From Halorubrum trapanicum (GTDB lineage Archaea > Halobacteriota > Halobacteria > Halobacteriales > Haloferacaceae), in contig NZ_AP017569.1 in NCBI RefSeq assembly GCF_002355655.1, positions 248,001-312,000 on the forward strand: a stretch of 64,000 bases of DNA, given 5' to 3'. The notes beneath the pieces are model-generated. The model ran no database searches and had not been told where the DNA came from. It saw only the letters and a program-made list of their open reading frames with translations. A program made the translations under genes and the position numbers. Shown here in pieces: positions 8,920 to 59,005 of this stretch. Position 1 is the first letter of the stretch; every line of letters begins with the position of its first letter.

Positions 8920-9293
8920 CGGTGGCAGCGATACGCTATTTAAATATCTATGAACGGCGGCAGCGATTACTTATAAACGCGGTACGGTCGGCGCGCGCCT
9001 CCGAGCGGCCGCCCCCGACGGCCGCGAGGAGCCCGTGCGAGGGAGTCGGTGGTCCGGAGCGAAGCGGAGGACCACCGACGAGGCTGGGGAGGCGTGAGGT
9101 GCTGTGCGGTGCGGGGGCGGGACTCAAAGGGGCAGCCGTGAGGCGGGCGCAGGCGACGCAAGCACCGCAGCGAGGAAACGTAGTGACTGAGCGAGGAGCG
9201 CAGCGAGCGTGCGCCCGCCTCACGGCTGGGGCTTTGGAGATGGTTTCGGCCAGTCCGCAGTAAACCGTTTATAAGTGAGCGGCTAGAGCTTCG
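8920..9293 (-). repeat. Dispersed three-hairpin element, copy 1 (reverse orientation)
   Basis: This fills the spacer between the convergent signal peptidase and NYN genes; I see no gene in it. Read on the minus strand it starts at a TTATAA box near 9267-9273, then CTCCAAAGCCCCAG. Hairpin I has 19-bp perfect arms (9133-9151 with 9210-9228), extended across a 3x3 internal loop by CAAAG/CTTTG (9125-9129, 9232-9236). Hairpin II has 11-bp arms (9045-9055 with 9069-9079). Hairpin III has an inner 7-bp stem (9005-9011 with 9019-9025). A TTATAA box near 8970-8976 and an ATTTAAAT palindrome near 8938-8945 close the element. The palindromic flank is shared with copy 3. Confidence 0.8.
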
Positions 9294-10429: not shown

Positions 10430-10710
10430 ATTATAAGCGATCGACTGCGCTACGGAGAACACCTCCAAAGCCCCAGTCGCGAGGCGGGCGCACGCTCGCT
10501 GCGCTCCTCAGTCGCTCGTTTCACTCGCTCCTTCCGGTGCTTACGTCGCCTGCGCCCGCCTCGCGACTGCCCCTTTGAGTCCCGCCCCCAACAGCACCGC
10601 AGCCTCACACCTCCCCAGCCTCGTCGGCCTCCCTCCGGTCGGCCGACTCCCTCGCGCGTGCTCCTCGCGGCCTTCGGCCGCTCGTCGGCACGCGCCACCG
10701 CACATATAAA
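10430..10710 (+). repeat. Dispersed three-hairpin element, copy 2
   Basis: This occupies the gap between two convergent genes. After a TTATAA box (10430-10436) and ACACCTCCAAAG, hairpin I has 19-bp perfect arms (10474-10492 with 10551-10569), extended across a CCC/CCC internal loop by CAAAG/CTTTG (10466-10470, 10573-10577). A G-poor linker contains CACACCTCCCC. Hairpin II pairs 10623-10629 with 10641-10647. Hairpin III pairs 10654-10661 with 10688-10695 and encloses a 6-bp stem with a TTC loop (10667-10681). The end is ATATAAA at 10704-10710. No gene is supported here; open frames inside reflect GC-rich sequence without stops. Confidence 0.8.
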
Positions 10711-10735
10711 TCCAAAAAGCAGCTGCTCGTCTCCT

Positions 10736-12529
10736 TTATAAGTCTCGCGTGAGCCGCGGGTTCGTCACCGCGCCGTCCGCGGCGGACGCGAAGTCGCGGC
10801 CGTACTTCGCGAGGATGCCGCCCTCGTAGGGCGGTTCGGGTGCGTCCCACGCCTCGCGGCGCTCGTCGAGCTCCTCCTCGGTGAGGTCCACCGTCAGGTC
10901 GCGTTCGGGGATGTCGACCGTGACGTGGTCGCCGTCCTCGATGAGCCCGATCGGGCCGCCGACGGCGGCCTCGGGCGCGACGTGGCCGATCATCGGGCCG
11001 CGGGTGGCACCCGAGAACCGGCCGTCGGTGAGCAGCGCCACGTCGTCCTCGTGGCCCGCGCCCACGACGGCGGCGGTGACGCCGAGCATCTCGCGCATCC
11101 CGGGGCCGCCGCGGGGGCCCTCGTTGCGGATGACGATCACGTCGCCGGACTCGATGCCGCCGGACTGGACGTACTCCATCGCCTCTTCCTCGTTCTCGAA
11201 CACGCGGGCGGGCCCCTCGTGGTAGAACTCGTCGTCGCCGGTCACCTTCAGCACCGAGCCGTCGGGCGCGAGGTTCCCGTCGAGGATCTTGATCGCGCCC
11301 TCCTCCTCCTTCGGCTCGTCGACCGTGTAGAGGAAGTCGGCCTCGATCTCGTCGTCGGCCGGCAGGTCGCCCCGCTCCTCCAGCTCGGCGATCTCCTCGG
11401 CGAGGGTTCGGCCCGTCACCGTCATCGCGTCGCCGTGGAGCAGGTCGGCCTCCAGCAGGCGCCGGAGGACGACAGGCACGCCGCCGACCTCGTGGAGGTC
11501 GTTCATCACGCGGCTCCCGCCGGGCTGGAGGTCCGCGATCTTCGGCGTGCGCCGCGAGATCTCGTCGAAGTCCTCGATCGAGAGGTCCACGTCCGCCTCG
11601 CCCGCGAGCGCGAGCAGGTGGAGCACCGCGTTCGTCGAGCCGCCCATCGCGGTCTGGACCGCGATCGCGTTCTCGAACGACTCTCGGGTGAGGATGTCGG
11701 AGGGCCGCCGGTCGTTCTCGATACAGTCCATCGCGAGCTCGCCGGCGCGCTCGGCGACCGCGTAGCGCTCCTCGTCCTCGGCGGGCGGCGAGGCGGAGCC
11801 GAGCGGCGCCAGCCCGAGCGCCTCCGAGAGCGACGCCATCGTGTTCGCGGTGAACATCCCGCCGCACGAGCCCGCGCCGGGGCAGGCGTTGCGCTCCAGG
11901 TCGTCGAGCTCGTCGGCGTCCATGTCGCCCTGCGCGTACGTCCCGACGCCCTCGAACACCTGGACGATCGTCACGTCGCGCCCGTCGTGTTGGCCGGGCA
12001 TGATCGACCCGCCGTAGAGGAAGACGCTGGGGAGGTCCGTCCGGATCGCGGCCATCATCATCCCGGGGAGGTTCTTGTCGCAGCCCGCGACCGTCACCAG
12101 CGCGTCCATCCGCTCGCCGAAGGAGACGAGCTCGACGGAGTCGGCGATCACCTCCCGCGAGATGAGACTCGCCTTCATCCCCTCGGTCCCCATCGAGATG
12201 GCGTCGCTAATGGTGATCGTCCCGAACTCGATCGGCATCCCCCCCGCGGCGTCGATGCCGTCGAGCGCGGCGTCCGCCACGTCGTCGAGGTGGACGTTAC
12301 ACGGCGTGATGTCCGCGGCCGGGTTCGGCACGCCGATGATCGGCGAGGAGAGGTCCTCGTCGTCGAACCCCATCGCGCGGAACATCGCGCGGTGCGGCGC
12401 CTTGTCCGGCCCCTCGGTCACCTCGCGGCTCCGCAGCTCCTCGTCTTTCCCGCCGGCGAATCGGTCCGTGTCCTCCCGGCGACGACGCCGCTCGTCGTCG
12501 TCGTCGGATCTCGGCTGCTGTTCGCTCAT
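10736..12529 (-). CDS. ilvD: Dihydroxy-acid dehydratase
   Basis: Dehydrates 2,3-dihydroxy-isovalerate and dihydroxy-methylvalerate to the 2-oxo acids in valine, leucine and isoleucine synthesis. The 597-residue protein shows the Fe-S ligand segments [14 protein letters not shown] and [18 protein letters not shown], plus [32 protein letters not shown] and [13 protein letters not shown]. The first 45 residues are an acidic, charged extension. It has no branched-chain partners next to it and stands alone between repeat copy 2 and the lower-GC islet. Confidence 0.96.
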
Positions 12530-30069: not shown

Positions 30070-30515
30070 GGTTGCTTATAAGTTGCGGCGAGTCCGCGGT
30101 GGAGTTTTCCAAAGTCTCCGTCAATCGTTTATAAATAAACATCCGTTGGCCGACAGAGAGCACCGCTAAAGCCCCAGCCGCTCGCTTATAAATGGTTAGC
30201 GATGAATCGGCGGAGACTACCTCCAAAGCCCCAGCCGCGAAGCCGCCGCACACTCGCTGTGCTCCTCACTCGTTCCGGTGCTTGCGTCGTCTGCGGCGGC
30301 TTCGCGGCTGCCCGTTTGAGTCCCACCCCGCACAGCCTCACACCTCCCCAGCCTCGTCAGTCGCCGTCGCTTCGCTCGGCGACTGACTCCCTCGCGCGGG
30401 CGGTTCGCGCCGCGTTGCGGCGCTCACCGGCACGCGCCACCGCCGTGTTTATTTATAAGTAATCGTCGCCGCTCACGGGTATTTAAATATCATACCGCTG
30501 CCGCCGGTCTGACTC
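30070..30515 (+). repeat. Dispersed three-hairpin element, copy 3, with tandem TATA-like units
   Basis: The 643-base gap 29921-30563 between convergent genes holds this element; 29921-30069 shows nothing I can support. Three tandem units begin at TTATAA boxes 30076, 30129 and 30186, each ending near CCAAAG or CTAAAGCCCCAG. Hairpin I has 19-bp perfect arms (30232-30250 with 30292-30310), with many bases different from copies 1 and 2 on both arms. Hairpin II has 11-bp arms (30356-30366 with 30377-30387). Hairpin III contains a 7-bp stem with a GTT loop (30407-30423). A TTATAA box (about 30453) and an ATTTAAAT palindrome near 30482 end it. Confidence 0.8.
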
Positions 30516-58424: not shown

Positions 58425-58452
58425 TTCGGTTCGCCGGACATATTGGGAGAAG

Positions 58453-58700
58453 TCATTTATAAAGCGATCGCGGCACTGCTATCAGTGATATATAAGCGAT
58501 CGACGACGCAACGAAGACTTCCGAATCTCCAGCCGCTCGCTTATAAATAGTTGTCAGTGACTCTGCGGTGAACACCTCCAAAGCCCCAGTCGCTCGGCCA
58601 TACGTCGATGGTTACGCCGGGACCACTCCCAAAGCCCCAGCCACTCACTTATAAACGGTTGCTGGCAGAACGGCGACAAACACCACCAAAGCCCCAGCCG
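58453..58700 (+). repeat. Tandem array of TATA-like ~51-57-bp units leading element copy 4
   Basis: TTATAA-type boxes at 58457, 58490, 58541 and 58649, plus a degenerate one near 58600, open successive units. Each unit runs about 51-57 bases to a conserved end such as CTCCAAAGCCCCAGYCGCTCG. TATA-to-CGG.GAACACC spacing is about 25-27 bases, as in a promoter and start site. The last unit leads into hairpin I of copy 4. Copy 3 has three such units and copies 1-2 one each. Confidence 0.7.
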
Positions 58701-59005
58701 CGAGGACTCGCGCGCCTCGTTGCGCGCTTCAGTCGCTCGCGTTGCTCGCTCCTTCCAGTGCTTACGTCGGCGTGCTTCGCCCTCGCGGCTGCCCCTTTGA
58801 GTCCCGCCCCGCACCGCAACCGTACCTCACACCTCCCCAGCCTCGTCGCCGGACTACGTCCGGCTGCAAGCGAGAGCTTCGCTCTCGCCCTGTCAGTCGC
58901 CTCCGCTTCGCTCCGGCGACTGACTCCCTCGCGCGTGCTGACTCGCGGCCGCCGGGGGCGGCCGCTCGCAGGCACGCGCCACCGCGTAGTTCTTTATAAG
59001 CAACC
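58649..59005 (+). repeat. Dispersed three-hairpin element, copy 4 (with two extra hairpins)
   Basis: The 601-base gap between convergent msrB and the histidine kinase gene is filled by the tandem units and this element. Hairpin I has 11-bp perfect arms (58695-58705 with 58781-58791), extended over a CCC/CCC loop by CAAAG/CTTTG (58687-58691, 58795-58799). Two additional perfect hairpins are inserted in the linker (58848-58864 and 58870-58888). Hairpin II pairs 58892-58901 with 58915-58924. Hairpin III pairs 58931-58938 with 58972-58979, around a 9-bp stem with a GGG loop (58945-58965). TTTATAAG near 58993 ends it. Confidence 0.8.

Follow-up and report, generated by a model that had tools for sequence, protein, structure and literature searches.

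Integron attC sites are folded single-stranded DNA that is recognized by structure, and the sequence of their stems is variable. They form arrays, whereas the repeat described here, from Halorubrum trapanicum, occurs as dispersed single sites. The PATEs of Haloquadratum walsbyi are transposase free, reach about 180 copies per genome, and are dominated by palindromes (PMC3119063). Our element resembles the heterogeneous class of PATEs in being haloarchaeal, in its copy number, in the variability between copies, and in its invasion by small hairpin repeats. However, PATE palindromes match IS605-type ends, none of which were found in the element, and PATEs have strain-specific insertions, whereas the sites of the element are common to species (PMC3119063). 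The bacterial REP/BIME/REPIN repeats with RAYT are like it in being persistent and 3′ biased and in numbering over 100 extragenic palindromes on a chromosome, but the element is ∼250 bp long with three hairpins and fixed anchors, and Y1 is not conserved across its genus (PMC3116915, PMC2817692). Finally, the Halorubrum virus HF2 carries class I and class II intergenic repeats with lengths of 57 to 58 bp and 29 bp and with AT-rich promoter motifs (PMC8707807). The leader units of the element are similar to these in repeat length, but the motifs differ (TCTTTAAGTC, CGTCTNNTAGAG), and the HF2 repeats were for this reason rejected as the origin of the 57-bp leader. Phage records showed no similarity to the element.

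Anatomy and distribution of the repeat

The window, which is the whole 64,000-nucleotide stretch of H. trapanicum DNA that was analyzed, contains four places that an earlier note on this sequence had named as copies of one structured element. All four were found where it had put them and are one and the same element, although the ranges it gave for copies 3 and 4 also take in leader units. The order of parts is leader unit(s), hairpin I, a C-rich linker, hairpin II, TCCCTCGCG, hairpin III, GCGCCACCGC, and TTTATAAG. The leader consists of one or more tandem ∼57-bp TTATAA units (CTTATAAATnGTTGA...CGGATCGGCGGCGAACACCnCC). Hairpin I reads CAAAG-CCC-arm, apical loop, arm-CCCC-TTTGAGTCCC, with CAAAG and CTTTG forming the base and a CCC × CCC loop left unpaired. 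The linker is made of CACCGC-like repeats terminating in CCTCACACCTCCCCAGCCTC. The TATA-like right-end motif, TTTATAAG, lies 7 to 9 bp past CACCGC in most copies that have it. On the leader side, a TTATAA-type motif is found by profile 46/45 bp before CAG in 51 to 52 of the 98 own copies, and a TATA-like motif of any kind 60 to 30 bp before CAG in 77 of the 98. An inward-pointing CTTATAAA at both ends of the element forms a short inverted motif.

A clear illustration is copy 2, on the plus strand. Its leader unit (10430 to 10463) has a TTATAAG-type motif and then GGAGAACACC; a candidate TATA box precedes the conserved GAACACC by ∼25 bp. Hairpin I (10466 to 10577) is closed by CAAAG at 10466 to 10470 and CTTTG at 10573 to 10577, with the CCC × CCC loop and 19-bp arms at 10474 to 10492 and 10551 to 10569 that are supported by sequence, fold, and covariation. 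The linker (10578 to 10622) contains AGTCCCGCCC, CACCGC-type repeats, and the anchor CCTCACACCTCCCCAGCCTC. Hairpin II (10623 to 10647) is GTCGGCC...GGCCGAC, and hairpin III (10654 to 10695) has an outer stem, GCGCGTGC/GCACGCGC, a covarying 3-bp middle stem, an internal loop, and an inner hairpin. The right end (10696 to 10743) has CACCGC and a TTTATAAG (10735 to 10743) that is more distant than in most copies. Folded as RNA, copy 2 gives −106.5 kcal/mol compared to −80.4 for dinucleotide shuffles (z −6.7). Copy 1 (8969 to 9276, minus strand; body about 8984 to 9237) lies between convergent genes, and a motif search placed TATA-like motifs at its right end (8969 to 8977) and leader (9268 to 9276). 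Copy 3 (30070 to 30515, plus strand) has leader units at 30070 to 30224, a body at about 30224 to 30443, and the tail TTTATAAG...TATTTAAAT...GACTCATC. Copy 4 (58450 to 59005, plus strand) has several leader units from about 58450, a body at about 58687 to 58985, and the right TTTATAAG at 58993 to 59001; its hairpin I is of the CGCGAGGACTCGCGC subfamily, and an additional double-hairpin insert lies next to hairpin II.

Variation beyond this plan was seen at several loci. Tandem duplications of the leader unit are present at L002, L020, L025, and L062 and in the window at 30070 to 30224 and 58450 to 58687. Such units are near-identical inside one locus and differ from locus to locus; from their sequences, the tandem duplication suggests in-place expansion of a possible promoter. 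At L105, L116, and L249, hairpin I is wholly or partly gone and hairpins II and III are kept, as if it had been deleted. Past some copies an extra tail, TTTATAAGTAATCGTCGCCGC..TATTTAAATA..CGCTGCCGCCGG..GACTCATC, is conserved, in the window at 8920 to 8977 (minus strand) and 30452 to 30510, and contains two AT motifs ∼28 bp apart.

A 22-bp core motif, allowing up to 3 mismatches, has 178 copies in the genome (94 on the plus and 84 on the minus strand), whereas the backward control has 0. All 178 are on the chromosome contig (C1; 2,835,595 bp, ∼2.84 Mb) of the 3.08-Mb genome, and the non-chromosomal 245 kb contain none compared to 15.4 expected (P(0) about 2e-7). The element thus occupies ∼180 intergenic gaps of the chromosome and about 1.7% of its length (178 × 265 bp). 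In the window, two anchor motifs were counted 8 and 4 times, respectively, whereas shuffling predicts 0.44 and 0.17. A search for the family gave matches in 30 of 30 Halorubrum genomes sampled and in 103 of 148 genomes overall; the named loci with matches are mostly from Halorubrum, with a few from Haloparvum, Halobellus, and Halorussus. Six further Halorubrum genomes have 12, 62, 67, 117, 122, and 123 core-motif copies, and copy number in the genus ranges from 12 to 178 per genome. For analysis of the copies themselves, the stretches around them (loci) were taken. The anchors are kept and the stems are unrelated in Halobellus, Haloparvum (a partial element), and Halobaculum. For instance, in a copy on a Halobaculum plasmid, hairpin I is CGGCGCTCTCGGG/CCCGAGAGCGCCG, an unrelated stem, and the anchors persist.

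Outside chromosomes the element is nearly absent. No match was found in phage records and viral contigs, and a search of 72,556 plasmids gave just four weak ones, which is unlike an active transposon. An Rfam scan of the window returned 0 matches, the best Rfam score obtained was 17.9 bits where 88 is the cut-off, and no published description was found in the literature searched, which leaves subscription journals mostly uncovered, so that priority cannot be claimed. The element is real, genus-wide, and strongly structured, and the 1.7% of the chromosome that it takes up is without a counterpart in Rfam or the literature searched. Its gene context is approximate, since genes were taken from a simple trained caller built for this analysis. 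All 103 copies examined lie in gene gaps, with a 7-bp overlap between one of them and the end of a predicted gene, and the upstream gene is co-directional in 69 of the 103 (p 0.0007).

Covariation of the stems and the scarcity of G·U pairs

The hairpins pair in the way that the earlier note had described. The arms of hairpin I are exact complements over 19 bp in copies 1 to 3 and 11 bp in copy 4, CAAAG and CTTTG pair beneath the 3 × 3 C loop, and hairpins II and III retain pairing through sequence change. The statistical covariation test that it had recommended, carried out on many copies, showed an excess over both shuffled and slid controls. For hairpin I, of which 55 distinct stems were used, pairing was found in 96.8% of the cells compared to 82.5% after shuffling, two-sided change was seen at 13 of 18 pairs, and none of 500 shuffles reached any of these measures. 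The changed cells were two-sided in 131 cases and one-sided only in 5, and pairing with slid partners was 32 to 40%, far below that of the real partners. The base helix covaries as well, CAAAG/CTTTG alternating with CGAAG/CTTCG. Among 96 own copies, hairpin II occurs in 62 distinct versions, most of which are palindromic; they fall into two anchored types, GTC...GAC and CGCGG...CCGCG. In hairpin III, the 3-bp middle stem between loops pairs exactly in 111 of 183 hairpins compared to 33 when shuffled (maximum, 49), its variants being TCC/GGA, TGC/GCA, GAC/GTC, GGT/ACC, TGT/ACA, and CGT/ACG. The CCC × CCC loop is unpaired although perfect stems enclose it; the motifs by which copies were collected fix the anchors in part, this loop included.

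RNA stems proper tolerate G·U pairs. Hairpins I and II of the element contain 4,791 Watson-Crick, 20 G·T (0.4%), and 48 C·A (1.0%) cells, a count that omits one position where the 5′ arm belongs to the repeated leader; 17 of the 48 C·A cells stem from a single variant. In the control, 30 tRNAs from the same loci, 620 of 662 pairs were Watson-Crick, 42 (6.3%) were G·U, and none were C·A. The zero for C·A is uninformative because the tRNA finder, ARAGORN, favors paired stems and so under-counts C·A, but 6.3% compared to 0.4% for G·U is still informative. G·U pairs are about 15 times rarer in the element than in tRNA stems and not commoner than C·A. Of the features expected of a structured RNA, covariation is present and G·U tolerance is absent. 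The near absence of G·U compared to tRNA stems indicates that complementarity appears to be maintained at the DNA level, and judged from these counts DNA is more likely than RNA to be the acting form. The earlier note had read compensatory change as the classic sign of selected structure; this is borne out for covarying hairpins but not as a pointer to RNA, G·U being scarce. The element is a clean case of strong covariation nearly without G·U, and covariation alone is no proof of RNA structure.

The non-coding RNA that the note had proposed is weakened by the same deficit. Such a reading would make the element a multi-copy structured RNA or a 3′-UTR RNA structure, with transcription driven by the TTATAA leader or the right-end TATA or reading through from the upstream gene. 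It would account for the TATA-like motif ∼25 bp ahead of the conserved GAACACC in most copies, the TTTATAAG 7 to 9 bp beyond CACCGC, the location of the element 3′ to a co-directional gene, and the strong fold of copy 2, and the element may be transcribed from its inward TATA-like motifs at both ends. However, it is unlikely given that plus-strand G·U is nearly absent and not above C·A and that Rfam has no match. A plus-strand C·A is a minus-strand G·U, so that a minus-strand RNA is slightly less disfavored; the C·A excess would favor that strand if anything, but 17 of the cells come from one variant.

Our preferred reading, to which we give a probability of about 0.5, is that the element is a REP-like high-copy chromosomal repeat that most likely works as folded DNA. 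The three hairpins, with fixed single-stranded anchors between them, would arise in single strands during replication or repair or as cruciforms. They would be recognized by a structure-specific host or transposition enzyme through their shape and fixed parts (the CCC × CCC loop, the C-rich linker, TCCCTCGCG, and GCGCCACCGC) and not through the letters of the stems. Copies would be gained in intergenic, mostly 3′ sites and afterwards long retained in one orientation, and hairpins would be exchanged or corrected piecewise, between and within copies, which would keep the stems complementary despite sequence drift. DNA as the acting form, the recognizing enzyme, past mobility, and gene conversion are what we infer. 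More tentatively, and at well below even odds, this may be a chromosomal family defined by folded DNA, with constant unpaired anchors and free perfect stems, that is read by an archaeal protein, either a structure-specific enzyme or one for chromosome maintenance, and has spread over Halorubrum and relatives with plasmids and viruses largely excluded. The hundreds of natural variants can be used in the search for an archaeal protein by which the fold would be read.

Mutation by itself might also generate such palindromes, if template switching during replication corrected one arm to the other and no function were needed. The 131 two-sided changes compared to 5 one-sided ones, the rarity of both G·T and C·A, and the independent evolution of the hairpins would all follow from this process. 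However, the loops between perfect stems remain unpaired and are not "corrected," the anchors are kept across genera and the stems are not, and a 3-bp stem flanked by two loops covaries. Because the CCC × CCC loop is unpaired within perfect stems, arm-to-arm copying without selection fails to explain the shape, and we consider this origin very improbable.

Sites, orientation, and turnover

Some trends were apparent in the placement of copies. First, convergent gaps are used more often than divergent ones (35:12, p 0.001). Second, the leader sides of neighboring elements face each other in 7 of 7 cases at less than 1.3 kb and in 15 of 18 at less than 2.6 kb (p 3e-7), whereas neighbors beyond 2.6 kb show no orientation bias. 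In relatives, 6 of 10 close pairs are leader-facing and none are tail-facing. The 18 pairs within 2.6 kb in the own genome include window copies 1 and 2. Local duplication was rejected as the source of the head-to-head pairs, hairpin I identity being 0.87 in 12 close pairs compared to 0.85 in random ones. No replication-strand bias or regular spacing along the chromosome was seen.

Third, orientation is conserved at shared sites. At site c4, which is flanked by convergent genes, 6 species have the element, in the same orientation; in most other species the site is empty, with the flanking genes about 20 to 80 bp apart, and one genome (G135) has a leader remnant only. Where filled, site c1 is always minus and site c2 always plus. 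In flank-matched comparisons over all loci, the element was present in the same orientation in 135 cases, reversed in 2 (at one site), and missing in 35; these are not frequencies, since many loci were fetched for carrying the element, and the 35 include some false core matches within genes. A composite cassette of two inverted copies flanking a gene was rejected because the c1-c2 gene pair occurs in other species without either element.

At the shared sites c2 and c4, right-flank identity was 0.82 and 0.76 compared to 0.72 for paralogues, whereas the hairpins were not more similar than those of paralogues, identity being 0.85 to 0.87 compared to 0.85 for arm I and 0.86 to 0.88 compared to 0.86 for hairpin II; site c1 contributed one pair alone. 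Inside the element, the three hairpins show no association with one another beyond shuffling, for which reason swapping of whole elements was rejected as the source of covariation, and the two parts of hairpin I are associated within copies (z 4.5). These patterns would fit sites that are slowly gained and lost, together with exchange or correction of short tracts, one hairpin at a time. The analysis revealed neither an enzyme nor a transposition event or target duplication, and the species with empty sites are too diverged for a junction to be seen.

The long-term retention of sites may instead reflect a site-specific function. The element would then be a domesticated chromosomal DNA element, selected at each site and bound as folded DNA by a host protein, acting as a nucleoid or replication site or as a 3′-end insulator between genes. 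This would agree with its restriction to the chromosome in this genome, the sites and orientation common to species, the convergent gaps, and the leader-facing neighbors. Against it, congeners vary from 12 to 178 copies, empty sites are clean with normal gaps, and neither spacing regularity nor strand bias is found along the chromosome, which makes selection at each site an improbable account.

Relation to transposons and nested inserts

The REP-like repeat preferred here was compared with known mobile elements. The resemblance to a MITE or REP put forward in the earlier note holds in that the element is dispersed, intergenic, and 3′ biased, with occupied and empty sites, but no movement of it was seen, and none of the usual enzymes is linked to it. 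With 178 copies it is a high-copy extragenic palindrome, as REPs are. Its ends share just TTATAA, and the junctions are too diverged to resolve a target duplication of the MITE kind. This genome has one Y1_Tnp, and the Y1 transposase is absent from 11 of 52 genomes. One of the 11, G013 (2 contigs; 99% complete), contains 122 copies of the core motif. A RAYT-driven REPIN was therefore rejected, Y1 not being conserved across the genus. Transposon ends were compared for the IS605 type: at 21 tnpA and 16 tnpB loci, similarity was found only near a whole copy or a small hairpin insert, and 7 of 14 chromosomal tnpB genes lie within 3 kb of an element compared to 4.7 at random (p 0.145). Derivation from IS605 elements or PATEs was rejected for lack of end homology and of significant tnpB nearness; the element is too short for a transposase. 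Given the 11 genomes without Y1 and the lack of a relation to IS605 ends at these tnpA and tnpB loci, the element is described as working like a REP or PATE and filed as neither.

Smaller repeats are nested in the element. Like SMR-A, which inserts within PATE palindromes, small inverted-repeat inserts lie within its hairpins, but these are double hairpins of about 50 to 60 bp, whereas SMR-A is about 110 bp (PMC3119063). Inside copy 4, at about 58848 to 58927, there is a ∼50-bp double-hairpin insert (e.g., CCAGCGAGGGACC..GGTCCCTCTGGCAGCCGGCG..CGCCGGCGAC). The same insert family, which resembles the SMR-A inserts in Haloquadratum PATEs and whose stems vary in pairs too, is found within hairpins II/III at L129, L132, L146, L045, L061, L067, L103, and L189. 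A third double hairpin of ∼57 bp, CGTTCACGAGAGC..GCTCTCGTGAGCCAATCAGAACGC..GCGTTCTGATGACG, has variable loops and occurs at L074, L077, L078, L092, L146, L161, L164, L165, L170, and L193. A similar double hairpin lies beside an IS605-type transposase at the TnpA locus L202.
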